Positions 5,502 to 48,913 of a DNA stretch of 49,362 bases are shown here, one piece after another. The stretch's first letter is position 1. Each line of letters begins with the position of its first letter. The position numbers and the translations under genes are program-made. This DNA is from Lachnospiraceae bacterium (GTDB taxonomy: Bacteria; Bacillota; Clostridia; Lachnospirales; Lachnospiraceae). The DNA lies in the NCBI GenBank assembly GCA_017455525.1, contig JAFTAP010000030.1, positions 1-49,362 on the forward strand. Reading direction: 5' to 3'. Below the pieces are notes generated by a model. It was not told the DNA's origin and searched no databases. It worked only from the letters and a program-made list of their open reading frames with translations.

Positions 5502-5577
5502 GTTGACATAATTCAATGTTTACATCGTCTAATTTTATTTACATAACATATTTTATGTAAATTCATATAGTATTATA
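5502..5577 (-). promoter_or_regulatory. Multi-site control region: -10 box, 24-bp palindrome and two half-sites
   Basis: Reading leftwards: TATAAT (5577-5572), then the perfect palindrome TTTACATAA-N6-TTATGTAAA (5538-5561), then two copies of the half-site facing the same way, near-match GTTTACATCG (5518-5527) and exact GTTGACATAA (5502-5511), spaced 16 bp apart. The palindrome begins about 10 bp after the -10 box, where a repressor would block the start of transcription. No good -35 hexamer was found, so the promoter itself is less certain than the repeats. Confidence 0.5.
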
Positions 5578-5634
5578 AACCATCATCGCTATGAAAAAAA
5601 CAACCGCCTGTAGCACTAAATTTCATCAAAAAAT

Positions 5635-6429
5635 TCATGCTATTCCGCGATACCTCTCACATTTTACTGCAAATACCCTCGCAAATTCCGTATTGCTCCT
5701 AAAATACAGATGCGGCCACCCCGCCCATATCGTATCTGTTATGTGTATTCCCTTATATGTATCACCGGTAGAAGCCTTCACTATATTTGCGCTATCCCCA
5801 TTATCCCCTGCCTCATAATAATGGAATTCATGCCCCTTTATCCCCATAGCAGGATCAAGCCACAATCCTGTCTTATCAAATACCTCCACATATCCGAAGC
5901 GCACTAATCTGTCCTTCTTTTCACATTCGGTTTGAAATATACTACACATCTCATATTTTGTTTTAATGGCATCCTCAACAACCGGCGAATCGGTCTCCGG
6001 CGAATGCTGTGAAACGACATAGCCGTCTGCGCCTCCTTGTGAAAAAGCGCCAGAATTCACGGTTTCATTATTATGAAAAGAATCATGCACGCTTTTTATG
6101 TCAACCGAATTCATAAGATACATGAATCCGCCGCACTCCGTTATAATCGGCATTCCGAAGCCTACTTTACGTTTTATGTCAACCAACATGCTCTTATTCT
6201 CCGCCAGCTTCTTCGCATGTAATTCGGGATATCCTCCCCCTATATAAATCCCGGAAATATCAACAGGAAGCTCCTTATCACTTAAAGGAGAGAAACAGAC
6301 TACCTCAAAGCCCGCTCTCTCAAGCTCCCTTATGTTCTCCTGATAATAGAAGCAGAACGCCTCATCACAGGCTATTGCAAGTCTCAATGATCCCATCGAT
6401 GTCCACGCTCTCTTCCATACATTCGGCAA
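5635..6429 (-). CDS. cbiA: Cobyrinic acid a,c-diamide synthase, C-terminal (glutaminase) half, out of frame with its N-terminal half
   Basis: CbiA amidates the a and c side chains of cob(II)yrinate using glutamine and ATP. This ORF carries its second half: LRLAIACDEAFCFYYQEN, FSPLSDKELP, IYIGGGYPELHA, and the class-I glutaminase nucleophile region ITECGGFMYL (Cys), ending with EFHYYE and WPHLYFRSN. It is a different frame from the N-terminal half (6365-7105) and overlaps it by 65 nt. The ORF opens at a TTG; an ATG at about 6396, just before SLRLAIA, with GAAGAG upstream is a plausible alternative start. Either the gene is broken by a one-base frameshift in the variable linker, or it is expressed as two polypeptides or by frameshifting. 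Three copies of the GTTGACATAA repeat lie in or beside it. Confidence 0.8.
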   Translation of the reverse strand: MPNVWKRAWTSMGSLRLAIACDEAFCFYYQENIRELERAGFEVVCFSPLSDKELPVDISGIYIGGGYPELHAKKLAENKSMLVDIKRKVGFGMPIITECGGFMYLMNSVDIKSVHDSFHNNETVNSGAFSQGGADGYVVSQHSPETDSPVVEDAIKTKYEMCSIFQTECEKKDRLVRFGYVEVFDKTGLWLDPAMGIKGHEFHYYEAGDNGDSANIVKASTGDTYKGIHITDTIWAGWPHLYFRSNTEFARVFAVKCERYRGIA

Positions 6430-7105
6430 GCCTTGCCAGTTTTATTTTTATGTCAACTATTTCCTGTGGTAAAGTAAGTCCAAGATATCTACTCTCTATC
6501 CCCATGTCCTTAAGCTCCGGCAGATACCCAAAAGGGCGGATTCCAAGCTCTTCACGGATTATAGAAGACAGCTTATCATAAAGAGACTTCGTGCAGCGGT
6601 TCAGTATCACCCCTCGTATAAGCGAACTTTCATCATAATCCATAAAACCACGTATCATGGCAATAAGCGAACGGGAAGCTCCTTTTTCATCTATTATAAG
6701 AATGATCGGAACACCAAGACATGATGCAAGATCGTAAGTCGCGCCCTGCCTGTCTATACCCCCAAGCCCGTCATACAGCCCCATCACGCCCTCTATAACT
6801 GATATATCCGCTCCATGCGAGCATTTGCTGAAAATATCCCGAACCGTATCATAGTCAGAAAAATATGTATCCAGATTCTCGCATTTCCTGATCCCATCAT
6901 GTCTCTCGTCATCTCCCATAACCGTATCATGAAACAGCGGATCAATATAATCAGGTCCCGCCTTGAAGCTCTGCACGGTAAGTCCCCTGTTTTTAAAAGC
7001 CCTGGTCAGGCCACAGGAAAGCATTGTCTTTCCGCTCCCGCTATGCGGAGAAGCAATACAGAGCGAAGGGGTGTTATTTATGTAAACTTCGCTGTAATCT
7101 GACAT
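6365..7105 (-). CDS. cbiA: Cobyrinic acid a,c-diamide synthase, N-terminal (ATPase) half
   Basis: The 246-residue ORF has the P-loop-like dethiobiotin-synthetase fold of CbiA: SPHSGSGKTMLSCGLTRAF, SFKAGPDYIDPLFH, and VIEGVMGLYDGLGG, all hallmark motifs. It runs through the inter-domain linker (ESVDIDGIIE) and then stops at TGA, while the glutaminase half continues in another frame. A full CbiA is about 455 residues; together the two halves give that length, so only the linker is affected. GGAG lies upstream of the ATG at 7105, 61 nt beyond the end of the CbiJET gene. Repeat copies are at 6448 (IVDIKI) and 7078 (EVYINN), both in poorly conserved positions of the protein. Confidence 0.85.
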   Translation of the reverse strand: MSDYSEVYINNTPSLCIASPHSGSGKTMLSCGLTRAFKNRGLTVQSFKAGPDYIDPLFHDTVMGDDERHDGIRKCENLDTYFSDYDTVRDIFSKCSHGADISVIEGVMGLYDGLGGIDRQGATYDLASCLGVPIILIIDEKGASRSLIAMIRGFMDYDESSLIRGVILNRCTKSLYDKLSSIIREELGIRPFGYLPELKDMGIESRYLGLTLPQEIVDIKIKLARLAECMEESVDIDGIIETCNSL

Positions 7106-7166
7106 AGCCCTTCGCTCCTACGTGTTAAAAAATTGTCAATCGTGTAATAAGTACTCGCCAAAACCA

Positions 7167-9260
7167 TCACAAAGGCTTCTTCTGTACCTCTCCCGATCCG
7201 GCCATGAACGAAATGCACGCAATGAAGATGGGGTTCAGCGACCCTATTATATGATATTTATCAACCGTCCTGGTCTTTGAAATGTTCATCTGTATTATGT
7301 CAACCGAGGAATATGGTATCTCCGCCATTATTTCCATTATCGAGCTCAGGGTCTCTATCGTGACAGCGCTTGCAACGACTCTCACTGCCTTATTCTTATC
7401 CTTAAGCCCCCTTATTATTTCGCGAAGCTTGCCATTCGATCCCCCTATGAAAGCCGCATCAGGCTTGGGGAGTACATCGAATTCCTCAGGTGCGGAGCCT
7501 CTGATCACGGTCATGTTGTCGCGACCGTACTTTTCCTTATTCTCTATCGAAAGCTCTACTGCCTCCTCAAGCTCCTCGATCGCATACACATGTATGTCAT
7601 CGGATATACCCGCAGCCGCGACGGATATACTGCCAGTGCCGCTGCCTATGTCATACATCACGTCGCCCTTCTTAAGCCCCAGCTTGCCAAGGATTACATA
7701 ACGTATTTCCTCCTTCGTCATCGGAAGACCCTCCCTCCTTATGAAGTCAGAATCCTTGAGAGCAAAGCCCGATGTATTAAGCGGTTCCTCATTGTATATG
7801 TAAAGCGTTGCCAGCCCGTCCTTTATCTCCTCGTACATCTCTGCCGCATCCTCTGCGGTCTTTGCATAAAGCCTCACATCGGGAGCCCCGATATCCACGC
7901 CCATCACCAGCTTGGTATCTCCCATCCCCGCCTCTTTAAGAAGCTTTCCATAGTAAATAAAATCCTCCGGCTTCGACAGCAGCATGAAGGTCTTCTCGTT
8001 ATTCCTCACCGCTGTTATCACATTCATATCAGAGGTACTGTCCTGCTCAACACCGTGCATCGATATTATCTTACTGTTCTCATAGGTTATCCCCATTATC
8101 GCTGCCAATGAAGCAACAGAAGAAACGCCGGGAATTTGCTTTATGTAAACTGTAGTTCCTCTTCCCTTCTGTTCAGCCTTCCATTCATCCAGAGCAGGGA
8201 TCAGCTCCTTTGTTCCACTGTAAAAACCCGAGTCACCGGAATAAAGCACCACCGCCTTTATCGTATCGTCTGCAAGCGAAGACGAAAGACGGTCAAGATA
8301 TTGGATTATGTCAACCGCTTTATAAAATGGAAAGCTCTGCCTCTCCTTGCCGTATATATCCACGAGTCGCTTCGAGCCGAATATATACTGCGCCTCGTCT
8401 ATTGCGTTCCTCGCATCTCCCGTGAGGCTTCCCTCATTTCCCATTCCGCAGCCTATGACCGAGACCTCGAACTGCCTGTCACGCCCTATCCTCACACCGG
8501 TAAGCCTGGTCAGCATAGCGCATACATTATCAAAGCTCATACCCTCGGTGGCATCAGGATTACCCACGACGAAAAGGCTGATGCCCGCTTCATCGGCAGC
8601 AAGCGCCTTCTCAAAGAAGCCTCCCGCCTGTCCGGTCATCTTCGTCACGAGTACAGAAACCCTGTAATCATTTATCTGGGCTACATTCATCTCCTTGCTG
8701 AAGGGGCCCTGCATAGCGATTATGTCCCTTCCTCCAAGACCAAGACTCTCGCAGGCCTTCATGCTCTCGCTACCCGGAAGCACCCTGGCGATGAGCCTTC
8801 CCTTGAGCGACCCCCTTCTCGTATATATCGGAAGCTCCTTACTCCCTATGGTAAGCAATACATTTCCTCTCGTTCCCTCAAGAGCTATTGCGCATGACTC
8901 GTTATCATCGAAATAATGAACGCCCGGCTTTGTGTAATCGGTGCTGTTGCCGGTTTCACGCTTTAATCTCAAGTATTGCAGCAGAGTAGTCTCTGCCGCA
9001 GCTTTTATATTATCCGAAGCTATGGTCGCATACGGGTGGGTCGCATCCACGACGCAGATGAAATCCTCGCTTTCCATAAGCTCCTCCATCTGCGACTCAG
9101 TAAGCCTGCCCTGCCTCACCTCTATACCTTCAAGATCGGGCATTGCCTGTAATCCGTACTCTGTGGCCACACAAACAAGGGCGCTCACTCCTGCCAGAGA
9201 GATCTTCTCCGCAATCTTCCTGCCCTCCGTAGTTCCGGCAAAAACCAATATCCTGCTCAA
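7167..9260 (-). CDS. Triple fusion CbiJ-CbiE-CbiT: precorrin-6A reductase plus precorrin-6B C5,15-methyltransferase/decarboxylase
   Basis: The 697-residue protein joins three corrin enzymes. Residues 1 to ~255 are CbiJ/CobK (ILVFAGTTEGRKIAEKIS, VVDATHPYA, MQGPFSKEMN, VTKMTGQAGG). Residues ~262-470 are the CbiE methyltransferase (VSVIGCGMGNEGSLT, VLYSGDSGFYSG, IPGVSSVASLAA). Residues ~495-680 are CbiT, a class-I SAM enzyme (REGLPMTKEEIRYVIL, MYDIGSGTGSISVAA, AFIGGSNGKL). It would reduce the macrocycle and then methylate C5 and C15 with loss of the C12 acetate carboxyl. CbiE-CbiT fusions (CobL) are common; fusion to CbiJ is less usual. It overlaps cbiH by 4 nt, which implies translational coupling. 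Confidence 0.88.
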   Translation of the reverse strand: MSRILVFAGTTEGRKIAEKISLAGVSALVCVATEYGLQAMPDLEGIEVRQGRLTESQMEELMESEDFICVVDATHPYATIASDNIKAAAETTLLQYLRLKRETGNSTDYTKPGVHYFDDNESCAIALEGTRGNVLLTIGSKELPIYTRRGSLKGRLIARVLPGSESMKACESLGLGGRDIIAMQGPFSKEMNVAQINDYRVSVLVTKMTGQAGGFFEKALAADEAGISLFVVGNPDATEGMSFDNVCAMLTRLTGVRIGRDRQFEVSVIGCGMGNEGSLTGDARNAIDEAQYIFGSKRLVDIYGKERQSFPFYKAVDIIQYLDRLSSSLADDTIKAVVLYSGDSGFYSGTKELIPALDEWKAEQKGRGTTVYIKQIPGVSSVASLAAIMGITYENSKIISMHGVEQDSTSDMNVITAVRNNEKTFMLLSKPEDFIYYGKLLKEAGMGDTKLVMGVDIGAPDVRLYAKTAEDAAEMYEEIKDGLATLYIYNEEPLNTSGFALKDSDFIRREGLPMTKEEIRYVILGKLGLKKGDVMYDIGSGTGSISVAAAGISDDIHVYAIEELEEAVELSIENKEKYGRDNMTVIRGSAPEEFDVLPKPDAAFIGGSNGKLREIIRGLKDKNKAVRVVASAVTIETLSSIMEIMAEIPYSSVDIIQMNISKTRTVDKYHIIGSLNPIFIACISFMAGSGEVQKKPL

Positions 9261-10081
9261 ATCCTGTACTTCCTTCCTGTTATCATTTTCTCATTTATGT
9301 TAACCGTATCGCTGTTCCCGATAAAAACAGTCGCAAACATATCAAGCTCTGTATCGCGAAGCTCGCCTACCGTAGTTATGGCATGCTCCTCTGCGTCCCT
9401 GCCGATGTTCCTCACATATCCGGCGATCCTGCCAGCACCCGTATACTCTGAAATAATATCACATGCATCACGCAAGGTATATGGTCTTGTCCGGCTCATA
9501 GGATTATATATCACTATCGCAAAATCCCCCTCCGAAGCCTTCTGTAACCTTAAGGCTATATCCTCCCAAGGAGTGAGCGCCGTCGAAAGCGATATGACGG
9601 CGAAATCATTGCCTATAGGAGAACCCAGCATTGCCGCCCCGGAAAGTGCGGCCGTGACTCCCGGAATTATAGTTATGTCAACTTGACCCTTATTCTCTGC
9701 CGCATTTGCAAACTCTTTGGCATCGAGTCTGTAAATAAGCCCTGCCATCCCATAAATCCCGGAATCCCCGCTGCATACGAGAGCCACCTTTTTTCCTTTA
9801 TAGGCCTCACTCAATGCGTATCTGCATCTGTCAGTCTCCCCGCCCATACCTGTGGAATAAAAGAGCTTTCTATCTGCGTCATCACCTGTATCCATGCTCT
9901 CTTTCACATCGGCTGCAGCTATATCTTTAAATTCAATATCTTCATAAAGCTTCTTAATTATATTTATGTAAACTTCATACCCGACTACAAGCTCTGCTTC
10001 ATCTAAGGCTTTCAGCGCATCAAACGTAAGACAGCCTTTATTCCCCGGACCTATACCGACTACAAAGAGCCTTCCTCTCAT
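9257..10081 (-). CDS. cbiH: Precorrin-3B / cobalt-precorrin-3 C17-methyltransferase
   Basis: This 274-residue protein has the SAM-dependent tetrapyrrole methyltransferase fold: GIGPGNKGCLTFDALKAL at the N-terminus, VGYEVYINII, VALVCSGDSGIYGMAGL, IPGVTAALSGAAMLGSPIGNDF and the CbiH-typical ISLSTALTPWEDI and VIYNPMSRTRP. In the anaerobic pathway it methylates C17 with ring contraction. Its start overlaps the end of cbiG by 4 nt and its end overlaps the CbiJET fusion by 4 nt, so these three genes form a tightly coupled block. Repeat copies fall at VNIN (9295, variant), VDIT (9673) and VYIN (9964). Confidence 0.9.
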   Translation of the reverse strand: MRGRLFVVGIGPGNKGCLTFDALKALDEAELVVGYEVYINIIKKLYEDIEFKDIAAADVKESMDTGDDADRKLFYSTGMGGETDRCRYALSEAYKGKKVALVCSGDSGIYGMAGLIYRLDAKEFANAAENKGQVDITIIPGVTAALSGAAMLGSPIGNDFAVISLSTALTPWEDIALRLQKASEGDFAIVIYNPMSRTRPYTLRDACDIISEYTGAGRIAGYVRNIGRDAEEHAITTVGELRDTELDMFATVFIGNSDTVNINEKMITGRKYRI

Positions 10082-11019
10082 ACCGAGCCCTTATCCTTTT
10101 TCCCTATCGCTATCGTGATACCGGCATTCCCCATCTTTTTTGCGAACAACCTGCAGCCCGCCGCCACTACCGCCCTCTCGCACACATTATCCGAGCCGGT
10201 ATTCTTCTTTACGAAATCAGAAACCGTGAAATCCCCCTCCTGCTGCATAAGCTCCGCAGCCGAAAATGTCAAAAGCTTCTTCTTATGCGCCCTGCACCAT
10301 TCTATAAGCCCCGGCTCGTTCTTCTTGATATCTATAGTTGCAACAAGCCCTATATCATCAAGGCTTAACCGGTAATCGTCCAACACGGAATTTATATAGC
10401 CCTCGAACTGCGACCGCCTTATTCCCTTTTTGCAGCCTATCCCAAGCACATAAGGCTTCCTCGAAAGCTTTACCGTAGCATCATCTACTGTTATGTAAAC
10501 TTCATCTTCTTCTGCTTTATTCCTTATTTTTACTTTACTGCCGTCAAGCACCTTAGAAGAAATCTGAACGATATCCGCCCTCTCCGGAAGCTCAAGACCG
10601 TTCTCTTTAGCATATATGTCAACGGCGAACTTCTCGTTTATGTCCGTAGCGGTGGTTATGACGGGTATCGAGCCTATCCCCGATGCTATCCTGCCGCTTA
10701 GTTCGTTCGCGCCACCTATATGCCCCGAAAGTATGGGAATAACATATTTCCCCTGCTCATCAAGCACGAGCACTGCGGGATCTGTCAGCTTATCCTGCAC
10801 GAAGGGCGCTATAAGCCTCACGGCTATCCCTGCTGCCCCGATAAACAAAATCGCACCGCCCTTGACGAAATTCCCCTTTATAAAATTATGTAAACCGTCT
10901 GTATCCTTATTATCATGCGAATGGTAAACTCTTGCGTCACGGAAAACAGACACCTTATCCATGATCGTATCTGCAAGCTCCTTGCCGTTATTCGTGAATG
11001 TGATTATCGCTGTATCCAT
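10078..11019 (-). CDS. cbiG: Cobalt-precorrin-5A hydrolase
   Basis: CbiG opens the ring-contracted delta-lactone and releases acetaldehyde in the anaerobic route. The 313-residue protein shows the family blocks ILFIGAAGIAVRLIAPFVQDKLTDPAVLVLDE and LSGHIGGANELSGRIA in the N-terminal and middle parts, and GIGCKKGIRR with the C-terminal CbiG_C domain (LATIDIKKNEPGLIEWC). RBS GAGGAG lies upstream of the ATG. A 93-nt gap with a strong hairpin separates it from cbiF. Its repeat copies include one in a different reading frame (10886, Leu-His-Asn), which argues that the repeat is a nucleotide-level feature. Confidence 0.9.
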   Translation of the reverse strand: MDTAIITFTNNGKELADTIMDKVSVFRDARVYHSHDNKDTDGLHNFIKGNFVKGGAILFIGAAGIAVRLIAPFVQDKLTDPAVLVLDEQGKYVIPILSGHIGGANELSGRIASGIGSIPVITTATDINEKFAVDIYAKENGLELPERADIVQISSKVLDGSKVKIRNKAEEDEVYITVDDATVKLSRKPYVLGIGCKKGIRRSQFEGYINSVLDDYRLSLDDIGLVATIDIKKNEPGLIEWCRAHKKKLLTFSAAELMQQEGDFTVSDFVKKNTGSDNVCERAVVAAGCRLFAKKMGNAGITIAIGKKDKGSV

Positions 11020-11070
11020 ACGTCTCCTCTAAAAACGCTAGTTTTTCATCTGACATTATCCGTCCGGATG

Positions 11071-11117
11071 CCAGTACCGTTACCCACTCACGCCTTGCGT
11101 TCGTGGACGGTACTAGG
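11071..11117 (-). terminator. Strong hairpin at the end of cbiF
   Basis: CCAGTACCGT (11071-11080) pairs with ACGGTACT-A-GG (11107-11117), enclosing an inner CAC/GTG region. The stem includes the cbiF stop codon. There is no T tract, so RNA processing, mRNA stabilisation or partial attenuation between cbiF and cbiG is as likely as termination. A second small stem, AAAAAC-GCTA-GTTTTT, lies just before cbiG (about 11031-11046). Confidence 0.4.
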
Positions 11118-11904
11118 CTCCGTTATCACCTGTACTTTCGTCTCCACCCCTGTAGCCGGTCGCAAACGAAGGGTCATAAAGCTTTGATCTCTCATAGCTG
11201 CTCCGGCCATCAAGCTGTGCCACGGCATGTCCCAAAAGAATCACCGCAAGCCCATTTATCCCCTCTCTCTGCATATCCTCTGTAAGTGTTCCAAGCGTAC
11301 AGGCAAGCCTCTTCTCGTCTTCCCACGATGCCTTATATACCACAGCCACAGGCATATCCCCGGATATCCCCGCAGACAACAGCCTGTCCGCAAGCTTATC
11401 CGTAAGCGTCGAGGACAGATAGACAGCAACCGAAGCCCCTGTTTTAACAAACCTCTCTATGCTCTCCGCCTCCGGAACCTCTGTCCTGCCCGACATTCTG
11501 GTTATCACGAAGCTCTGCGTAACCCCCGGCAAGGTAAATTCAAGCCCTAAGCTTGCCGCCGCTGCCATCGCCGCCGTGACCCCCGGCGTTATGTCGTATT
11601 TTATATCGAGTTTACATAATTCATCTATCTGCTCACGCACCGCCCCGTATACAGAAGGGTCGCCCGAATGAAGCCGCACAATGTCAAGCCCCTTATCGTC
11701 TGCTTCTTTGATGATATTCATAACCTCTTCAAGCGTAAGGTATGCGCTGTCGTATAGTGTAACATTTTTTTTGCAATAATTCAGCAGTTCTTTATTTATT
11801 ATCGAGCCGGCATAAATCACAACATCCGCTTCCGAGAGAAGCCTCTGTCCCCGCACCGTTATAAGATCCGCCGCCCCGCTACCCGCTCCTACGAAATGTA
11901 CCAT
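11113..11904 (-). CDS. cbiF: Cobalt-precorrin-4 / precorrin-4 C11-methyltransferase
   Basis: The 263-residue protein matches CbiF/CobM: VHFVGAGSGAADLITVRGQ at the N-terminus (the glycine-rich SAM loop), VIYAGSIINKELL, YDSAYLTLEEV, VRLHSGDPSVYGAVREQID, ITPGVTAAMAAAASLGLEFTLP and VAVVYKASWEDE. It methylates C11 of the corrin precursor. The C-terminal ~25 residues (SKLYDPSFATGYRGGDES) are a typical variable tail. RBS GGAG is upstream. A repeat copy at 11610 is read in the opposite sense (Leu-Cys-Lys). The 350-nt region upstream, before cbiD, is filled by the MITE-like element. Confidence 0.9.
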   Translation of the reverse strand: MVHFVGAGSGAADLITVRGQRLLSEADVVIYAGSIINKELLNYCKKNVTLYDSAYLTLEEVMNIIKEADDKGLDIVRLHSGDPSVYGAVREQIDELCKLDIKYDITPGVTAAMAAAASLGLEFTLPGVTQSFVITRMSGRTEVPEAESIERFVKTGASVAVYLSSTLTDKLADRLLSAGISGDMPVAVVYKASWEDEKRLACTLGTLTEDMQREGINGLAVILLGHAVAQLDGRSSYERSKLYDPSFATGYRGGDESTGDNGA

Positions 11905-11943
11905 ATCCTTATCTCCATTCAGACACCTTTGCCCAAAACGTGA

Positions 11944-12170
11944 ATGTTCATGGGCAAAATATATTTTCTGCGCAGTTCTATTTTTCTTCGTTATGTTCTT
12001 GAAAGTGCTCCACTATCAGGGGCGAGGGTACATGGATGTACCCGAGAGATCATCCTGAGCATGGATGCGAATATGATCGGCCCCGTGACTAAGCAATATC
12101 TTAAATGCACTTTCTTAGAACATAGAAGAAAAATAACCACAAGCAGAAAATATATTTTGTCCATGAACAT
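11944..12170. mobile_element. 227-bp MITE-like element with ~64-bp terminal inverted repeats
   Basis: The left end starts ATGTTCATGGGCAAAATAT and the right end is its near-perfect reverse complement (ending ATATTTTGTCCATGAACAT). Similarity continues inwards for about 64 bp, through TTTTCTGC and ATTTTTCTTC to GAAAGTGC, with few mismatches. The centre holds a perfect small hairpin (GGGTACAT-GG-ATGTACCC). It encodes no convincing protein; ORFs on both strands are by-products of the inverted repeat. It fills the gap between cbiD and cbiF, and in RNA would fold into one long hairpin able to affect downstream cob expression. A decayed relative lies at 34145-34223. No target duplication was certain. 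Confidence 0.65.
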
Positions 12171-12254
12171 GTACCTAAGCAGCAAAATCTACTTTATGTA
12201 AACCCCTAATTTCTTGTAAAATCTTAACCACGCAAAGCCAAATTGTATACAATA

Positions 12255-13412
12255 TCACGCCGATTTACCTTGATTTTCTGTGATCCTCTCCAGCATCTCC
12301 CTCATATGTTCCGTTTCACTCACAAGTGCAATCTCGCCACAATATGTTGTGGCCTCGATATTTATTTTTCCTTCCGCCCTAAAGTCTAAATAGTATTTTA
12401 TACGTGAAATTATGGTTGACATAACGCTATTTAGGCTATTATTTCCACCCTCTTTTTCATCGTATTTTTTGACTATTTTAAGTGCTTCTACGGTCGAAAC
12501 GGAATCCAGTATCTGATTCAGCACTTCATTCGGAAGTCCTGCCCTGATCGCGGCAGCAGCTATCGTCTCCATCCTGCCATCCGCTTCATGGCTATGTGTG
12601 TTCATTATCCCCGAAGCAACCTTCGCGAGCTTACCTATATGTCCCGCAAGTATCACATCCTCAAAACCCAGCGAGACACACATATCTATCGTTTCTCCGA
12701 TGAAATTCGAGCATTTCACGGCTCTGTCTATATCGTAGCCGTAATGCTCCAAAAGAAACTGCCTGCCATAATTCCCCGGCGATATGACAACTCCCCTATC
12801 GCCCAGAGCCTTCCTCTGGTTTAATTCAACATATATAGTATCTTTGAGCGCCTTATCACTCATAGGCTCCACAACGCCCGATGTGCCTATTATGGATATA
12901 CCGCCTTCTATGCCAAGCCTTGGATTAAAGGTACGCTTCGCAATCTCTTCTCCTTCCGGCGCAGAAATAGTTATGTCAACTCCACCCTCATATCCCGCAA
13001 TCTCACAAGCCTCACGCACGGCCTCACTGATCATCTTCTGCGGAACAGAATTTATAGCCCACTCTCCGACAGGCTGGTCAAGTCCCGGCTTAGTGACCTT
13101 CCCTATACCCACTCCGCCATGGATGAAAACTTCTTCATCATGCCTATTACTATTTCCGGCGGTCTTAGGATATCTTGCCGCAGCATAGATCAATATCCCC
13201 GTAGTGACATCCGGATCGTCTCCGCCATCCTTCCTCACTGCACAGCGAGCCTCGTCCTTATTCAGGGTAACATCCAAAAGCGCCGCCTCAAACCTGTCCC
13301 CCCTCGGAACAGTTATGTCAACCGAATTTATCTGTTCTCCGACAAGCAGCATATAAGCTGCCGCCTTAGCCGCTGCCGCCGCACAGCTTCCCGTCGTAAA
13401 TCCTTCTCTCAT
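12255..13412 (-). CDS. cbiD: Cobalt-precorrin-5B C1-methyltransferase
   Basis: CbiD methylates C1 in the anaerobic pathway. Motifs are MREGFTTGSCAAAAAKAA at the start, GDDPDVTTG, GGVGIGKVTKPGL, INSVPQKMI, NPRLGIEGGISIIGTSGVVEPMS and the C-terminal LAGHIGKLAKVASGIMNTHS. I place the start at the ATG at 13412 (385 residues) because GGAGG lies eight bases upstream and family members begin just before GFTTG; the frame extends six codons further to a GTG. The ATG overlaps the trkH stop (TGATG), so the first cobalamin gene is translationally coupled to a potassium-transport gene. No cobalamin riboswitch is visible ahead of it. Repeat copies: 12415 (Met-Ser-Thr frame), 12971 and 13313 (VDIT). Confidence 0.92.
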   Translation of the reverse strand: MREGFTTGSCAAAAAKAAAYMLLVGEQINSVDITVPRGDRFEAALLDVTLNKDEARCAVRKDGGDDPDVTTGILIYAAARYPKTAGNSNRHDEEVFIHGGVGIGKVTKPGLDQPVGEWAINSVPQKMISEAVREACEIAGYEGGVDITISAPEGEEIAKRTFNPRLGIEGGISIIGTSGVVEPMSDKALKDTIYVELNQRKALGDRGVVISPGNYGRQFLLEHYGYDIDRAVKCSNFIGETIDMCVSLGFEDVILAGHIGKLAKVASGIMNTHSHEADGRMETIAAAAIRAGLPNEVLNQILDSVSTVEALKIVKKYDEKEGGNNSLNSVMSTIISRIKYYLDFRAEGKINIEATTYCGEIALVSETEHMREMLERITENQGKSA

Positions 13413-20726: not shown

Positions 20727-23261
20727 TTACCGGCTTCTCCTTGACTGCTTTGCCCCAGGCTTATTCACGGCCTGTTTCCTTGCTTTGCTCTGTTCCTTTT
20801 TAATATTAGTCTGCTTAAATACAATCTTATTATCAGCGTCTACCGCGACGCTGACAGTATCTCCGTTCTTCACCCTGCCTGTCAGTATCTCCTCCGCCAG
20901 AGGGTCCTCTATGTCGCTCTGTATCATGCGGCGAAGAGGTCTTGCTCCATACTTCTTATCCGAGCCCTTCTTCACGACATACGCCTTCGCCTTAGGCGTG
21001 ATGCGAACCTTTATATCAAGCTCCGTCTTAGCCCTCTCGACGAACCTCTTAGTGAGAAGCCCTACTATCTCCTCCATATTCTTATCGTCAAGCTGCCTGA
21101 AAACAATGATATCATCGATACGATTTATGAACTCCGGCTTGAATATCCGCTTGACCTCGTCCATGACATCGGCTTTCATCTTCTTATAATCATGCTCCGC
21201 ATCATCCGAAGCACCGAAACCGAGCTTTTTCGGCTCGACAATCTTCTGTGCTCCGGCATTAGAGGTCATTATTATAACGGTATTAGAAAAGCTGACCTTC
21301 CTCCCCTTGGAATCAGTGATCCTGCCATCGTCAAGCACCTGCAGCAGCACGTTGAAAACATCGGGATGCGCCTTTTCTATCTCGTCAAATAAAACCACGG
21401 AATAGGGATGCCGTCTCACCTTCTCCGAAAGCTGCCCGCCGTTCTCAAACCCCACGTATCCGGGCGGGGAGCCTATCATCTTGGATACCGAATGCGACTC
21501 CATGAATTCCGACATATCCACTCTGATTAAGGCATCCTCGCTTCCGAATAACGCCTCAGCAAGAGCCTTGGAAAGCTCCGTCTTACCGACTCCCGTAGGA
21601 CCAAGGAATAAAAAGCTTCCGACAGGACGCACAGGATCCTTCAAGCCTACCCTGCCCCGCTTTATAGCCTTCGCAACCGTGCTTACGGCTTCATCCTGCC
21701 CTACTACCCTCTGATGCAGTATGTCTTCAAGCTTTAAGAGTCTCTCATTCTCCTTCTCCGTTATCTTCGAGACAGGGATCTTCGTCCACATGCTGACGAT
21801 CTCCGCGATATCCTCCTCGGTGACGGTCTTCCTGTTATCCCCTGCCTTTTTCGACGCCCTGTCCTTCATGCGTTCAAGGCGCTTCTGCATCTTCTGCTGC
21901 TCCCGGTATAGCTCGCCCGCTTTGACAAAATCAGACTCCTTTATCGCATTCTCCTTTGCGATCGCCATCTCCTCTATCTCAAGCTCAAGCTCCTCTGCCG
22001 CCTTGGATGTAGAGGTCTCGCCGATATGCTTCTTTGATGCCGCCTCGTCCATGACGTCTATCGCCTTATCGGGAAGGAATCTGTCATTAATATACCTCTC
22101 TGACATCTTCACGGCGGCATGTATCGCCTCCGGAGTTATGTCAACTCCATGATGTTCTTCATACTTATGCTTTATTCCCATAAGTATAGAGACTGCCTCT
22201 TCCTCGCTTGGCTCCTCCACCGTGACAGGCTGAAACCTACGCTCAAGGGCAGCGTCCTTTTCTATATATTTACGATATTCGTCTATCGTGGTCGCCCCTA
22301 TCATCTGAAGCTCGCCCCTTGCAAGCGAGGGCTTCAGTATATTGGAAGCATCCATAGCCCCCTCTGCGCCGCCCGCTCCGATAAGCGTATGAAGCTCATC
22401 CACGAAGAGAATCACATTCTTTGATTCTATTACCTCGGCTATGACGCGCTTTATCCTCTCCTCGAACTCGCCTCTGTACTTCGAGCCCGCCACCATAGCG
22501 GACATATCAAGGGAGACGACGCGCCTGTCCTTCATAAGCGGAGGCACCCCGCCCTCTGCTATGCGAAGTGCGAGCCCCTCTACTATGGCGGTCTTTCCTA
22601 CGCCGGGCTCTCCTAAGAGGCAGGTATTATTCTTCGTCCTGCGGGTAAGGATCTGTATAGTGCGCTGAATCTCTGTGTCCCTGCCTATGATGGGATCAAG
22701 CTTTCCCTCCCTCGCAAGCGCCGTCATGTCCCTGCTGTAGCGGTCGAGCATCGGAGTCTCTCCGGCATCATCATCCTCTACGGGCCTCATGCTCCGCTCA
22801 TAGCCCGAAGCCTGATCTATCCCCATGGCGGTAATAGTATCGTCAAAAATCTTCTGAATAGAAACGCCCATCGTATTCATGAGCCTGACAGCGGTATTAT
22901 CGCCCTCTCTTAATATGGCAATAAGGATGTGCTCCGTGCCTATGGCTTTCGCTGCGAAGTTCCTCGCCGTATCTCCCGCAAGCGAGAGAATCCTCGCTGC
23001 CCTGGGAGTAAAGCCGTCCCGCTCCGCGACCGAAGTATTCATGTCGGAGTCCATCGGGGCGACGAGCTGCTCCGTAAGAAGCTTTATATTATCGGGCGTG
23101 ACCTTATTCATCAGAAGGACCTTTGACGCAAGTCCCGTGCCCTCGCGCAGAAGCCCCATCAAAAGGTGCTCCGAGCCTATGTAATTCTGACCTAGTTCCG
23201 CTGACGCCTGCTTCGCAAGAGCTATCGCAGCCTCAGCCTGTCTTGTGTATTCTTCAAACAT
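20727..23261 (-). CDS. clpC: ATP-dependent Clp protease ATP-binding subunit ClpC
   Basis: The 844-residue AAA+ unfoldase has the duplicated Clp-N domain (residues ~1-145), a first AAA module (GEPGVGKT, ALARGELQMIGATT), the UVR-type coiled middle segment of ClpC (KESDFVKAGELYREQQKM), and a second AAA module (GPTGVGKTELSKAL, DEIEKAHPDVFN). It delivers substrates to ClpP. The usual ctsR-mcsA-mcsB genes are not next to it. The C-terminus has a basic tail (KKEQSKARKQAVNKPGAKQS) not expected in all ClpC. A repeat copy at 22136 encodes the variable GVDITPE. The start codon ATG is at 23261, with 68 bp to the end of dapL. Confidence 0.96.
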   Translation of the reverse strand: MFEEYTRQAEAAIALAKQASAELGQNYIGSEHLLMGLLREGTGLASKVLLMNKVTPDNIKLLTEQLVAPMDSDMNTSVAERDGFTPRAARILSLAGDTARNFAAKAIGTEHILIAILREGDNTAVRLMNTMGVSIQKIFDDTITAMGIDQASGYERSMRPVEDDDAGETPMLDRYSRDMTALAREGKLDPIIGRDTEIQRTIQILTRRTKNNTCLLGEPGVGKTAIVEGLALRIAEGGVPPLMKDRRVVSLDMSAMVAGSKYRGEFEERIKRVIAEVIESKNVILFVDELHTLIGAGGAEGAMDASNILKPSLARGELQMIGATTIDEYRKYIEKDAALERRFQPVTVEEPSEEEAVSILMGIKHKYEEHHGVDITPEAIHAAVKMSERYINDRFLPDKAIDVMDEAASKKHIGETSTSKAAEELELEIEEMAIAKENAIKESDFVKAGELYREQQKMQKRLERMKDRASKKAGDNRKTVTEEDIAEIVSMWTKIPVSKITEKENERLLKLEDILHQRVVGQDEAVSTVAKAIKRGRVGLKDPVRPVGSFLFLGPTGVGKTELSKALAEALFGSEDALIRVDMSEFMESHSVSKMIGSPPGYVGFENGGQLSEKVRRHPYSVVLFDEIEKAHPDVFNVLLQVLDDGRITDSKGRKVSFSNTVIIMTSNAGAQKIVEPKKLGFGASDDAEHDYKKMKADVMDEVKRIFKPEFINRIDDIIVFRQLDDKNMEEIVGLLTKRFVERAKTELDIKVRITPKAKAYVVKKGSDKKYGARPLRRMIQSDIEDPLAEEILTGRVKNGDTVSVAVDADNKIVFKQTNIKKEQSKARKQAVNKPGAKQSRRSR

Positions 23262-28072: not shown

Positions 28073-29674
28073 TCATTTGCGCGATGCAAGCGCTCCTCTG
28101 TCAATCTTTCCGTTCTTATTCATAGGCATCTCATCAAGCTGCTCTGTCTTTCCCGGTATCATGTACTGGGGAAGCTTCCTCTGCAGACTTTCCGTGACGG
28201 CTTTTTTTTCTGCCTCTCCTGTATAATAGAGAAGTATCTTCTGCTTCTTCTGATCGTATATGCAGCAGGCTCTCGTCACGCCATCTACGGACATCGCGGA
28301 AACCTCGATCTCGCCAAGCTCTATCCTCTGGCCCATGTGCTTTATCTGGAAATCCTTACGGGTAGTGTATATCAGATTCCCGTCCTCATCATATTTGCCG
28401 AGATCCCCTGTACGATATATCCGCTCATGGAATCTGTTATTCAAGGGATTCTGCACAAAGACCTGGTCCGTCTTCTCCTTATCCTTGTAGTACCCAAGCG
28501 CAAGACATGAGCCGCCTACGCATATCTCACCCTCCACGTGGGCATCGAATACAAGCTTATCCTCATCGTCAAGCAGAAAGACTTTCTCATTCGCAAAAGG
28601 CATACCCGCCGGTATAGCCTCGTCCTTTGCAAATTCACGGTCAAGAATATAATAAGTGCAGTTACAGGTTATCTCGGTAGGGCCATATAGGTTTACATAA
28701 GTCGCATCAGGTAAGAAGCTCCTCCATTTATTCAAGTGCTTCACGGGCATTACCTCGCCGCTGAACATTATCTTATTTATCTTATCGGGAAGCCTGTACT
28801 CAAGCCCATTCATTATGGATACGAAGCACATGGCGGAGACGGCCCAGATAAGCGTCGTCACCTCATTATCCGTAAGGTAGTCCATGAGCACAGAAGGACT
28901 TGAGAAGTAATCCCTTGGTATAAGCTGCACTCTTGCCCCTGTAAGTAGCCCGCTGTAAATATCCTTCACCGACACGTCAAAATCAAAAGGCGCCTGATTA
29001 GCAAGCACATCTCTCTCGTCTATCCCGAAAACTTCTGTAAATTCGGTGATAAAATCGATGACCGAGCGGTGTCCCACGGCTACGCCTTTAGGCGTTCCGG
29101 TGCTGCCGCTTGTGAAGTTTACATAAAGCGGCATAGTATCATAGGCCACGGTTTTAGAAAACTCAAGCAGTCCCTCATCTATCTCGCAACCCTCCGCAAG
29201 CTTCATAAGATCGGACACCAGTATGATCTGAGGGCTTATAAGCTTCCTTGAGTTCAATATATAATACGGACTGTTAAGAGCCTTTGCCGCATTGGAGTTC
29301 TCCATCGCAGTAAGCGTCTGCTTCAGTGTGTCCTTATTTTCATCATCGGTTATTATTATCACAGGCTCCAGCACGGAGATCACAGCTCCCGCCCTTTCCA
29401 TAGGCTGCCTCACGTCTATGAAGCTGTAGAAACCCCCGGCTCTGACAACCCCAAGCATGGCGCATACCGCATCCACACTTTTTTCCATATAAAAACCAAC
29501 GCCCGATTCGGCCTCAAAAGGCACGCTCGCCTCTCCCTTAAGAAGCAACGTCGCAATTCTTTGCACTACATCATATAGTTTACCGAATGTCACGCTTTTT
29601 TCAGGATCGGCAAAGGCTGTATTCTCCGGAAATCTCTCCGCCGAGTCTCTAAGCATTTCTATCACATTAGTCAT
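28073..29674 (-). CDS. Amino-acid-activating ligase (AMP-binding, DltA/NRPS A-domain type)
   Basis: The 533-residue adenylation enzyme shows the core motifs A3 (LYVNFTSGSTGTPKGVAVGH), A5 (YVNLYGPTEITCN), A7-A8 (YRTGDLGKYDEDGN, RIELGEIE) and A10 (NKNGKIDRGAL). Asp in APFDFDVSVKDIY corresponds to the residue that binds the substrate amino group in A-domains, so an amino acid substrate is likely. The Cys of DltA that has been linked to D-Ala selection aligns with Ile in my hand alignment, so the substrate may not be D-alanine. It activates its substrate as an adenylate and loads the adjacent carrier protein. It overlaps the SGNH gene by 4 nt. Two repeat copies (28691, 29117) coincide with conserved YVN positions. 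Confidence 0.85.
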   Translation of the reverse strand: MTNVIEMLRDSAERFPENTAFADPEKSVTFGKLYDVVQRIATLLLKGEASVPFEAESGVGFYMEKSVDAVCAMLGVVRAGGFYSFIDVRQPMERAGAVISVLEPVIIITDDENKDTLKQTLTAMENSNAAKALNSPYYILNSRKLISPQIILVSDLMKLAEGCEIDEGLLEFSKTVAYDTMPLYVNFTSGSTGTPKGVAVGHRSVIDFITEFTEVFGIDERDVLANQAPFDFDVSVKDIYSGLLTGARVQLIPRDYFSSPSVLMDYLTDNEVTTLIWAVSAMCFVSIMNGLEYRLPDKINKIMFSGEVMPVKHLNKWRSFLPDATYVNLYGPTEITCNCTYYILDREFAKDEAIPAGMPFANEKVFLLDDEDKLVFDAHVEGEICVGGSCLALGYYKDKEKTDQVFVQNPLNNRFHERIYRTGDLGKYDEDGNLIYTTRKDFQIKHMGQRIELGEIEVSAMSVDGVTRACCIYDQKKQKILLYYTGEAEKKAVTESLQRKLPQYMIPGKTEQLDEMPMNKNGKIDRGALASRK

Positions 29675-32174: not shown

Positions 32175-32983
32175 GCTTTATTCGCCTCGTCTATAATTCT
32201 AATTATGTCAACCAAACCATCCAACCGCCATGTCTCTCTTATTCCGTCTAAATACCCTCTGTCATTATATATGCCATGCTCTCTTATTATACGGGCGGTT
32301 CGCACCGGCATGTCCTTAGCTATATGGAAATCCTTAGCCGGATTATCGCCTATATATATCATCTCTGACGGATCAGCCCGAAGCCTCTTTGCTATCTCCG
32401 CAAAGCCCTTTGGATTCGGCTTTCTGTACTCTTCTCCGCCAAACTCGTCATTTAGGATGATCTCATTAAACCAATATTTTATTTCTTCATCAGAAGCATC
32501 CGTTGTTATTTCGACGTTCGTCGAATTATGTAAGCTATGCATCGGTTTTGCTGAATTATCTCCGTTCTTTAATCCTCCGACTGCCGACCGTATCTTATTC
32601 CTCTGCCTTGCCGGATCGCCGTCAGAAATTATCCCCATAAGGATACCTCTCTTCTTCAATGCAAAAAGCGTCTCCTTCACATCGGGATAAAACTGCAGCT
32701 TCGCCGGATGGTTCCTGTAAGCAAATATGATCTCCTGCATCTCCCCGTCTGTATACGGCTCACCATAGCAGTCAAAAAGCCGATTGAACATATTAGAATA
32801 CGCTTCCTTGGTGAGATCCCAGAGCTTATCGTTTATCTCATCAGGATTACGCCCTAAACGATCCGAAAGTCGTTTTGAAATAAACTTATATCCGCTGACT
32901 ATGAATTCATATTCGGAAACAAGCGTGTCGTCAAGGTCGAAAATGACGGCTTTTATTTTGTTATGTGCTATGCTCTCTGTCAT
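32171..32983 (-). CDS. HAD-superfamily hydrolase
   Basis: The 270-residue protein has the haloacid-dehalogenase motifs I (VIFDLDDTLV, nucleophile Asp), II (LMGIISDGDP) and IV (MIYIGDNPAKDFHIAKD), with an alpha-helical cap between. Such proteins mostly dephosphorylate sugars or nucleotides. It is coupled to the MBOAT gene and follows the ATP-grasp gene, so a sugar phosphate or modified-sugar intermediate of the glycan pathway is plausible. There is no Shine-Dalgarno immediately before its ATG; instead GTTTACATAAT abuts the start codon. The VDI at 32213 carries another repeat copy. Confidence 0.8.
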   Translation of the reverse strand: MTESIAHNKIKAVIFDLDDTLVSEYEFIVSGYKFISKRLSDRLGRNPDEINDKLWDLTKEAYSNMFNRLFDCYGEPYTDGEMQEIIFAYRNHPAKLQFYPDVKETLFALKKRGILMGIISDGDPARQRNKIRSAVGGLKNGDNSAKPMHSLHNSTNVEITTDASDEEIKYWFNEIILNDEFGGEEYRKPNPKGFAEIAKRLRADPSEMIYIGDNPAKDFHIAKDMPVRTARIIREHGIYNDRGYLDGIRETWRLDGLVDIIRIIDEANKA

Positions 32984-33094
32984 ATTATGTAAACTTGCAT
33001 CTGATGTTATTTGCTGAGTTTTTATATGCTTTCAACTCGTCATCGTGCCTTAAATTATGTAAACTATATATCGAATCGTCTCTTTCCTATTATC

Positions 33095-34105
33095 TTATTT
33101 ATTAAGCTCTTGCGACTCCAGCTCGTTATCTTCATTAAGCATAATAGAAGCATCAAATCTGAGAAACGTCACGTTCTCTCGGAAAGCCTCATTTCTCTTA
33201 AGCTTCTCACCCCGTAATATACGGTACAGATTCTCACATGAGTCCGCTCCCGCCATGATAGACATAGGCGCTCCCCCGCCAAAGCGGGGATTTATCTCTA
33301 TGTACTCTATCCCCCTGTCCGTCCTCATGCACTGTATAGTGATATGTCCTATGGGCTTCAGCTCCGTAAGAAGCCTCGTCACATCCTCGATTATAGCCTT
33401 ATCCCTGACTATCCTGCCCTTTGCGATCTCACCGCTTCTCGTAGCTATCCTGATCCTGGGAACAACCGTTATTATTTCTCCCTCCATATCAAGGAAGCAG
33501 TCGATCGTATACTCCGTTCCCTCCATGAAATCCTGAATGATATATTTCCCGTCCCCTATAAGCTCACGATAAGTATCTATCTCTTCCTTATTCTCCGCCT
33601 TGAATGCGTTAATAGAAGACGAGCCATCCAGCGGTTTGATAAATAAAGGATAACTCGCCCGACCTGCGTCGATCTCATCATCACTTATCATGCGAGGCAC
33701 GAGGAATCCATGCTCCTCAAGCCATCTCTGCGTATTTGTCTTATCCCTGCATATCCTTATCACATCAAGCGAAGAAATAAGAACCTTAGCCTTCGTAGCC
33801 GCCTCAATCTCATCTAACCTCTCCGCAAGCAATAAAAGCTCCGTATCAATAGTCGGCACCACAAGGTCAATCTCATACCTATTGCAGATCTCAATAAACG
33901 AGTTTACATAATTATCATTCTCCGCAATCCTAGGCACCTGCTCCCTGACATCCGCAAAATAAAGCGCCGGAGCCAAATTACTGGCATCACATGCCACCAC
34001 CTTCCCCGAAATCCCCAGCCTGTCCCTAGCCGCCTTGAAGCAGTTCACAAGCTCCACTCTCCGCCCCGCGGATAATATTAAAATGTTAATACCATTATTA
34101 TTCAT
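33095..34105 (-). CDS. ATP-grasp ligase (carbamoyl-phosphate-synthase-like)
   Basis: The 336-residue protein has an N-terminal Rossmann domain (ILILSAGRRVELVNCFKAARDRLG, DASNLAPALYFAD, VVPTIDTELLLLAERL) and a C-terminal ATP-grasp fold (YPLFIKPLDGSSSINAFKAENKEEI, YIIQDFMEGTEYTID, and the Mg/ATP residues in IEYIEINPRFGGGAPMSI). ATP-grasp enzymes couple a carboxylate to an amine or thiol through an acyl phosphate. In this position, between a PglC-like transferase and the HAD/MBOAT genes, it may join an amino acid to an aminated sugar, but that is inference. A repeat copy at 33902 encodes NYVNS. Confidence 0.78.
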   Translation of the reverse strand: MNNNGINILILSAGRRVELVNCFKAARDRLGISGKVVACDASNLAPALYFADVREQVPRIAENDNYVNSFIEICNRYEIDLVVPTIDTELLLLAERLDEIEAATKAKVLISSLDVIRICRDKTNTQRWLEEHGFLVPRMISDDEIDAGRASYPLFIKPLDGSSSINAFKAENKEEIDTYRELIGDGKYIIQDFMEGTEYTIDCFLDMEGEIITVVPRIRIATRSGEIAKGRIVRDKAIIEDVTRLLTELKPIGHITIQCMRTDRGIEYIEINPRFGGGAPMSIMAGADSCENLYRILRGEKLKRNEAFRENVTFLRFDASIMLNEDNELESQELNK

Positions 34106-34882: not shown

Positions 34883-34948
34883 GTCTTATGTAAACCGAAT
34901 CCGATTCTCTCTTCAGCATCAACGTTATGTAAACTGCAAGTCTGCCTC

Positions 34949-48115: not shown

Positions 48116-48517
48116 TCATTCTGCCCAGTTCTCAATTTTCAGATTGCTCACTCTGGAGAACTCTTTCACATTATTAGTCACAACAGTATACCCAAGGGAC
48201 TGTGCATGACCGGCGATCATCATATCGAGAGGTCCTATCGGAGTTCCTTTTTTCTCCAGATCGGCTCTGATCTTTCCATAGCAATCGGCAGCATCTACAT
48301 CAAAATCTAAAATCTCAATATTTGCCAAAAGCATTGATAGTGCCAACCTGTTCTTTTCCACGGCAGCACTTTTTTCTACCCCATGCACCAGTTCTGCATA
48401 TGTGACCGAAGATACACACACATCTTCAGGCTCAACTTCCTGTAATTTCTGAAACACTTTCTCCGGCTTATGCTTGATCGCATAGATGCAGATGTTGGTA
48501 TCAAGCATATATCTCAT
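48116..48517 (-). CDS. vapC: PIN-domain ribonuclease toxin, VapC-type
   Basis: The 133-residue protein has the PIN fold with conserved acidic residues: LDTNICIYAI (Asp near residue 6), SSVTYAELVHGVEKS (Glu ~40), GPLDMMIAGHAQSLG (Asp ~97) and VTNNVKEF (Asn in place of the usual fourth acid). VapC toxins cleave tRNA or rRNA and are held inactive by VapB. Its start overlaps vapB by 4 nt. It lies between transposase and relaxase remnants, typical of plasmid or island addiction modules. Confidence 0.9.
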   Translation of the reverse strand: MRYMLDTNICIYAIKHKPEKVFQKLQEVEPEDVCVSSVTYAELVHGVEKSAAVEKNRLALSMLLANIEILDFDVDAADCYGKIRADLEKKGTPIGPLDMMIAGHAQSLGYTVVTNNVKEFSRVSNLKIENWAE

Positions 48518-48744
48518 AATTCTTCACGCTCCTGTACCATATCTGTTGCTCTTCCGTCAGCCATGAAATCATCAGAGAACATATCTATCGCTCTCATAAA
48601 AGAATCCCATTTATTCTGCTTAGGAAGCAGGATCACAATATCCCCAATTTTATTCACCATCACCTCATCTGATGTGAAACGACATTCCTTAGGAAGTCTG
48701 ATTGCCTGACTTCTTCCATTTTCAAAAACCTTTGCAGTCATCAT
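48514..48744 (-). CDS. vapB: VapB-type antitoxin
   Basis: From ATG 48744 (GGAAGGTGAT upstream) the protein is 76 residues: MMTAKVFENGRSQAIRLPKE is the AbrB/MazE-like swapped-hairpin DNA-binding fold of VapB, followed by DEVMVNKIGDIVILLPK and a C-terminal helix that neutralises VapC. The open frame extends to 48885 but that part contains the promoter. It represses its own operon in known cases; the promoter contains a GTATATAC palindrome that is a plausible operator. Overlap with vapC is four bases. Confidence 0.88.
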   Translation of the reverse strand: MMTAKVFENGRSQAIRLPKECRFTSDEVMVNKIGDIVILLPKQNKWDSFMRAIDMFSDDFMADGRATDMVQEREEL

Positions 48745-48768
48745 ATTGATCACCTTCCTTTCATTTAT

Positions 48769-48798
48769 AGTATATACCACGATATAGACCATAGTCAA
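48769..48798 (-). promoter_or_regulatory. vapBC promoter with internal palindrome
   Basis: Read leftwards: TTGACT (48798-48793), 18 bp, TATACT (48774-48769). GTATATAC overlaps the -10 region and TATATC/GATATA-like symmetry extends into the spacer, in keeping with autoregulation. Confidence 0.6.
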
Positions 48799-48913
48799 GA
48801 AAAACCTTTGCATATATTCTATGCATCGGTTGTCAATTTTACCCCAGGTTGAGGTAAATTTCTTTCGATCAGAAATCGTCCCCAACTTGTGGACGATTCT
48901 TTATCAAAATACA

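Follow-up and report, generated by a model that had tools for sequence, protein, structure and literature searches.

The window analysed here, a stretch of 49,362 nucleotides on contig JAFTAP010000030.1 of a Lachnospiraceae bacterium (assembly GCA_017455525.1), carries a run of cobalamin (cob) genes, including cbiD, a CbiF-like gene and a split CbiA, that is studded with a short repeated word. Seventeen of the window's 26 exact GTTKACATAA copies fall at 5502-13322, 15 of them in coding sequence and two in gaps (5502 and 12194); the addition of one GTTAACATAA copy at 9295 brings the totals to 27 in the window and 18 in the 7.8-kb cob stretch. A purine (A or G) precedes all 27, and the full word is RGTTDACATAA, with TTATGTHAACY as its complement. 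We refer to each copy as a half-site, meaning a candidate arm for a Xer recombinase.

The first-pass annotation of this DNA had reported the 26 and 17 copies against expectations of about 0.19 and 0.03, and its count is exact; 100 dinucleotide shuffles of the window gave a mean of 0.19 GTTKACATAA copies and a maximum of 1. The repeat also survives the comparison with codon-shuffled genes that the annotation had suggested, as 2000 synonymous-codon shufflings of the seven cob genes produced a mean of 0.98 copies and a maximum of 6 versus 15 observed. Because these shuffles fall far below the observed number, codon usage does not explain it. Likewise, the genes of nine word-rich loci from the genome that contains the window (G000; other G numbers denote compared genomes, C contigs and L loci) hold 71 RGTTDACATAA copies versus 2.8 per synonymous shuffle (150 shuffles). 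The same annotation's remark that Val-Asp-Ile is spelled differently away from the word is borne out, with GTTGACATA followed by A used in 10 of the 18 Val-Asp-Ile of the window and other spellings, including GTGGATATA and GTTGATATA, present elsewhere. The repeat is genuine and under strong selection.

Protein names in the window come from a by-eye reading of translations, without a family-library search, and a site is called kept in a genome where it is retained in that genome's orthologue. The first half-site, GGTTGACATAA at 5502..5511 on the plus strand, is intergenic. The sense copies lie on the minus strand: 6096..6105 (VDIK, C-terminal half of split CbiA), 6174..6183 (VDIK; kept in G022, G033 and G005 despite altered neighbouring residues), 6448..6457 (VDIK, N-terminal half of split CbiA; kept in G022 and G005), 7078..7087 (VYIN), 7295..7304 (VDII, in a 697-aa cobalamin gene; kept in G005 with Asn), 8141..8150 (VYIK; kept in G061, G022 and G033), 8306..8315 (VDII; kept in G061 and G022), 9295..9304 (VNIN; GGTTAACATAA, the form with D = A), 9673..9682 (VDIT; kept in G022, G033 and G005), 9964..9973 (VYIN; kept in G005), 10491..10500 (VYIT; kept in G061), 10886..10895 (GLHN, read in a frame offset by 1; kept in G061, G022, G033 and G005), and 12971..12980 and 13313..13322 (both VDIT, in cbiD). 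Between them stand a plus-strand antisense copy at 11610..11619 in the 263-aa CbiF-like gene, an intergenic minus-strand copy at 12194..12203, and a plus-strand antisense copy at 12415..12424 near the cbiD end, where several relatives have an antisense copy at a similar place. Beyond the cob stretch, minus-strand sense copies occur at 22136..22145 (VDIT, in a ClpC-like gene; motif kept in G061 with Asn) and 32203..32212 (VDII); plus-strand antisense copies at 28691..28700 and 29117..29126, both in the same ligase-like gene, and at 33902..33911; and intergenic minus-strand copies at 32985..32994, 33055..33064, 34886..34895 and 34925..34934.

The split CbiA (cobyrinate diamide synthase) at 5635-7105 consists of two overlapping open reading frames (ORFs), 6365-7105 and 5635-6429. 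CbiA is divided in this way, with the second ORF in the same relative frame, in G022 (L065:9013-10384), G033 (L066:5707-7075) and G005 (L063:10693-12055) as well, and is a single ORF in G015 (L064:11127-12500); a programmed frameshift and a genuine two-gene form are both possible. At the far end of the window, 48116-48885 holds what appears by eye to be a small PIN-domain toxin and antitoxin-like pair.

The first-pass annotation had treated the repeat as belonging to one cobalamin operon, which proved wrong. The G000 assembly (2.72 Mb, 110 contigs) contains 125 GTTKACATAA copies versus 8 of the reversed control word. Contigs C4, C68, C70, C79, C20 and C58 also have dense clusters. Dense regions outside cob feature surface-polysaccharide genes (C4, C68, C70), cbiB, nadE, rsmB and others (again named by eye), and with this genome-wide distribution a cobalamin-specific role finds no support. 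Among 30 cbiD loci, ten carry 3 to 7 copies and the remaining twenty carry 0 or 1. The word is present across the genus: with enrichment defined as a both-strand count at least three times that of the reversed word, and six further genomes left outside the count, 35 of 42 genus genomes are enriched (33 of 37, plus G061 and G067 from a further set of 5), G011 being among them with only 8 copies. In other families of the order, 2 of 24 genomes reach the threefold ratio, with 11 and 13 copies. We found no paper about the word in Lachnospiraceae among the titles and abstract openings listed for Xer/SMC/XDS, dif sequences, and Lachnospiraceae with XerS.

The word is sharply defined. In 0.42 Mb of G000, GTTTACATAA occurs 56 times, GTTGACATAA 49 and GTTAACATAA 16, where roughly 0.4-1 is expected per word; GTTCACATAA occurs once and is not enriched. 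GTTKACATAA (the K form) accounts for 105 copies, 95% of them preceded by A or G, and single-base variants are almost all near background, with the mild exception of A at the first position (15 vs about 3). The sharpness of the word and the lack of decayed variants around it suggest that every copy is maintained. The many coding copies, and their abundance in polysaccharide loci, regions that bacteria frequently exchange, would suit a DNA-uptake or recombination-promoting signal spread by transformation, an option that the first-pass annotation had raised; with copies clustered, one-mismatch copies nearly absent and the sites centred on the origin in G032, we consider it very improbable.

Selection on the DNA itself is seen between species. 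We aligned reciprocal-best orthologues by codon and took other 11-mers as the control. For G000 and G061, whose orthologues share an amino-acid identity of 0.77, 34 of 54 sites are retained versus 4.6% of other 11-mers, and where the overlapped residues are identical all 18 of 18 are retained versus 14.1% of controls (two free positions). Retention from G000 is 9 of 16 sites in G022, 8 of 14 in both G033 and G005, 3 of 6 in G021, 6 of 6 in G035 and 3 of 4 in G024; in the region of the replication origin, G032 sites are retained in G062 in 7 of 8 cases (vs 5.7%) and G062 sites in G032 in 7 of 12. The first-pass annotation had asked whether copies are conserved where proteins are not; the word persists through an Asp-to-Asn change (GTTGAC to GTTAAC) at four sites of G061 and one of G005, and through altered neighbouring residues. 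Because homologous positions keep their sites in diverged orthologues, simple transfer from a word-rich genome, another origin that it had offered, is disfavoured.

Coding copies are mostly in sense (53:18), as a signal in mRNA, such as a site for an RNA-binding protein or ribonuclease, might require. Synonymous shuffling predicts a close ratio (2.0:0.83), however, antisense copies are conserved, and location in G032 tracks chromosome position; this possibility, also raised in the first-pass annotation, now seems barely credible. Conserved antisense copies likewise led us to drop a NusG/RfaH-type non-template element and a MazF site. Overall, 192 copies are oriented with the leading strand versus 80 against it. 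Codon constraints explain most of the polarity of coding copies, leaving an intergenic share of 35 versus 12. Separately, L012:14668-15198 encodes a protein that looks NusG-like by eye, perhaps a specialised paralogue.

What the word resembles is one arm of a Xer recombination site. According to PMC3025954, B. subtilis dif ends in TTATGTAAACT and E. coli dif in TTATGTTAAAT; TTATGTHAACY contains the former, the right (XerD-side) arm, letter for letter over 11 letters and is close to the latter, and AGTTTACATAA is the complement of TTATGTAAACT. PMC5357621 states that RipX, the XerD homologue of B. subtilis, prefers the right half-site of dif for binding. Together, this arm identity and the retention between species support the first-pass suggestion of a DNA-binding or recombination-type signal selected at the DNA level.

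The genus has a dif of its own, a palindrome TGTTCGTATAAT..ATTATGCGAACA that is matched in 30 of 48 genomes (3 mismatches allowed); in G032 and G061 it sits where the GC skew flips. Because the arms of this dif are different, we rejected the word as an arm of the organism's own dif, and no description of this palindromic module was found in the literature searched on Xer and dif. Examples of the genus dif lie at L196:1-2000, L223:4646-4671 and L199:1501-1526; its neighbour is lexA in G061, and in G010 and G062 the gene of a XerS-like recombinase.

Six of the 30 dif loci have facing copies of the word 5 bp apart, RGTTDACATAA-N5-TTATGTHAACY, close to dif: G014, G030 and G066, G064 and G032 with one mismatch each, and G010, where two pairs flank the XerS-like gene on both sides. 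In G027 a pair precedes the XerS-like gene by about 29 bp. Against the dif layout of two 11-bp arms and a 6-8 bp centre, the arms fit and the centre is 5 bp. Away from dif, an inverted partner beside a single copy (up to one mismatch, in the loci searched) was limited to two imperfect cases, L006 with spacer 0 and L100 with spacer 6.

The pair is also found in public genomes, in at least 119 stretches that come chiefly from Lachnospiraceae and other Clostridia, less often from Bacillaceae and rarely from other groups. We analysed the neighbourhoods of 81 pairs in 80 of these stretches, and skew at 82 pairs with sufficient flank among the matches listed. Predicted ORFs contain four of the pairs; the genes on either side converge at 22, diverge at 5 (p 0.0015) and run in tandem at 40, with a flank lacking at 10. 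The commonest flanking families are LexA (11 proteins) and tyrosine recombinases (11, one gene counted twice), and a Xer-like gene is present in 17 of the 80 loci. Among the matches listed, skew shows a terminus-like flip at 17 pairs, an origin-like flip at 0, no flip (same sign) at 40 and an ambiguous pattern at 25, and some genomes have two pairs rather than one. Because random positions in the same loci are terminus-like too (249, versus 20 origin-like, of 2320), it is the neighbourhoods that are terminus-like and not the exact pair sites alone. Many of the listed pairs (L244, L258, L269, L274 and others within L242-L321) continue outward as longer inverted repeats, with no such continuation in 21 of 82; the outer stems vary between genomes yet remain complementary, which hints that a hairpin or cruciform plays a part.

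Two recombinases are candidates to bind these sites. In G000 the gene for XerD is on contig C64 (350 bits, against an NCBIfam cut-off of 329.6) and that for a XerS-like recombinase on C105 (199 bits, below the cut-off of 267). Of 37 genus genomes, 31 have a XerD match over the cut-off and two, G011 and G019, hold fragments. No XerC was detected in the genus, as no second match to the XerD model exceeds 180 bits, in searches that used the XerD model and XerS proteins and no XerC model. Three XerS-like proteins score 212.5, 198.6 and 217.8 bits against XerS (NCBIfam NF003462), all under the cut-off.

It is conceivable, and in our judgement unlikely, that the XerS-like single recombinase is the binder, with the pair as its old dif and the single copies as its half-sites. 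Pairs adjoin XerS-type recombinase genes in several relatives among the matches listed; 15 of 24 genomes from other families of the order have no XerD and only XerD-model matches of at most 180 bits, the XerS-like range; and single-recombinase genes are described in PMC5357621 as sitting beside their site. Within the genus, however, the XerS-like gene accompanies the different, palindromic dif: of the 41 genomes that have the gene, 29 have a dif match, versus 1 of the 7 that lack it (p 0.008), and the two lie 121-134 bp apart in G010 and G062. They are within 21 kb on the same contig in 12 of the 30 genomes with a dif match, 345 kb apart in G032 and on different contigs in G000. Moreover, G067 (98% complete) has XerD and no XerS-like gene that we could find, and is still enriched in the word (63 vs 8), which favours XerD as the binder, short of proof.

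We therefore return to XerD. In B. subtilis, XerD-bound sites (XDS) reportedly unload SMC, a result attributed to Karaboja et al. 2021. We propose, with confidence slightly better than even, that the copies described here are isolated Xer-type half-sites, most likely bound by XerD and used for chromosome organisation. Each copy would be an 11-bp single arm of a dif-like site bound by a XerD monomer, and over a hundred such arms, clustered and mostly inside genes, would be kept by selection on the DNA. The arms would let the recombinase act on chromosome organisation or segregation, as XerD sites do with SMC in B. subtilis, and would have no role in regulating cobalamin synthesis. The word itself, its sharp definition, the selection on it, its presence across the genus, its match to a known dif arm and, in some relatives, the pairs beside dif, lexA and recombinase genes are shown by the sequences; binding by XerD (or by the XerS-like recombinase) and the consequences of binding are inferred.

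Several observations weigh against this proposal. The genus dif arms are TTATGCGAAC / TTATACGAAC, unlike TTATGTHAACY. No XerD was found in four enriched genus genomes (G001, G026, G031 and G034, 66-90% complete), and of the 24 genomes from other families, 6 have XerD over the cut-off and none of the six is enriched. Seven of the 42 genus genomes (G014, G030, G032, G036, G062, G065 and G066) are under three times the control, and retention is weak in G015 (0 of 4 sites) and G027 (3 of 16). The weakest part, though, is where the sites lie. G032 is near-complete, with a main contig of 4.09 Mb, dnaA at 3.317 Mb, two perfect parS words at 3.326 Mb and a skew flip at 1.10 Mb; its sites are centred on oriC (3.32 Mb), with 36 of 45 in 2.70-3.80 Mb (4.4 expected), and the 0.4 Mb around the terminus holds 1 site (1.8 expected), which is half of the pair beside dif. 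In G061, the 191-kb dif contig has no K-form copy, the 44-kb dnaA contig has one, and the dense parts are elsewhere. A terminus-centred arrangement of XDS, predicted from the match to the dif arm, was thus rejected, as G032 and G061 contradict a plain copy of the B. subtilis terminus model. When G000-clade clusters were mapped onto part of G032, p was 0.018 at the gene level, where genes in a locus are non-independent, and 0.37 at the locus level.

These locations could instead point to an unrelated chromosome-domain protein (MatP-, Noc- or oriC-regulator-like), in which case the likeness to a Xer arm would be coincidental. The central 300 kb of G032 (3.18-3.48 Mb) holds 24 sites (1.2 expected), and 11 of 43 sites in G065 are on its 88-kb dnaA contig. 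A conserved copy stands among the DnaA boxes upstream of dnaA in four of the nine dnaA loci examined, from four species of one clade (G032, G062, G030 and G014; L116:3085, L114:3052, L117:3169 and L118:3172), with no oriC copy at those of G065, G066, G067, G027 and G061. Against coincidence stand the full 11-letter match to the B. subtilis XerD-side arm and the pairs beside dif and recombinase genes, and we think such a protein improbable, at about the level given to the XerS-like binder.

A bolder form of the XerD proposal can be offered tentatively, as something we rather doubt: XerD may have lost its XerC partner and its part in dimer resolution, now performed by the XerS-like recombinase at a new dif, and may survive as an architecture protein that binds more than 100 selected arms (18 of them in 7.8 kb), the oriC arm of one clade linking initiation and SMC traffic. 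If the half-sites are indeed bound by XerD, a site-specific recombinase has been reused as a dense chromosome-marking protein, and selection at the DNA level is powerful enough to influence which amino acids unrelated genes encode. The genus would then provide a natural test of the function of isolated Xer half-sites and, because the sites surround oriC in one clade, of whether SMC unloading needs the terminus. It would also be a caution that conserved words within genes, taken for codon bias or pathway signals, can serve chromosome maintenance.

Finally, the half-sites can be compared with known systems. Like XDS, which are themselves single XerD arms, they each equal one arm of B. subtilis dif, that on its XerD side, and are present in many copies in one region of genomes that encode XerD; unlike XDS, they number over 100, reach about 2 per kb, mostly lie within genes and are off the terminus (origin-centred in G032, and no K-form copy on the G061 dif contig), with no XerC detected and genus dif arms that differ. 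The 11-bp arm recalls Firmicutes dif/Xer sites, as does the palindromic paired form, often near lexA or recombinase genes and partly at a terminus-like skew flip, whereas single arms alone cannot recombine and the pair centre is 5 bp rather than 6. Several genus members parallel the XerS/difSL system in having a 350-aa XerS-like recombinase and a palindromic dif close to it, although the XerS score (199-218 bits for three proteins) is under 267 and the site differs from difSL. With matS/MatP of E. coli, the half-sites share short dispersed sites concentrated in one chromosome domain, and differ in sequence, phylum and location. The DNA uptake sequences of Neisseria and Haemophilus are short words with many coding copies; the half-sites are set apart from them by their clustering and by a word that has no one-mismatch halo.

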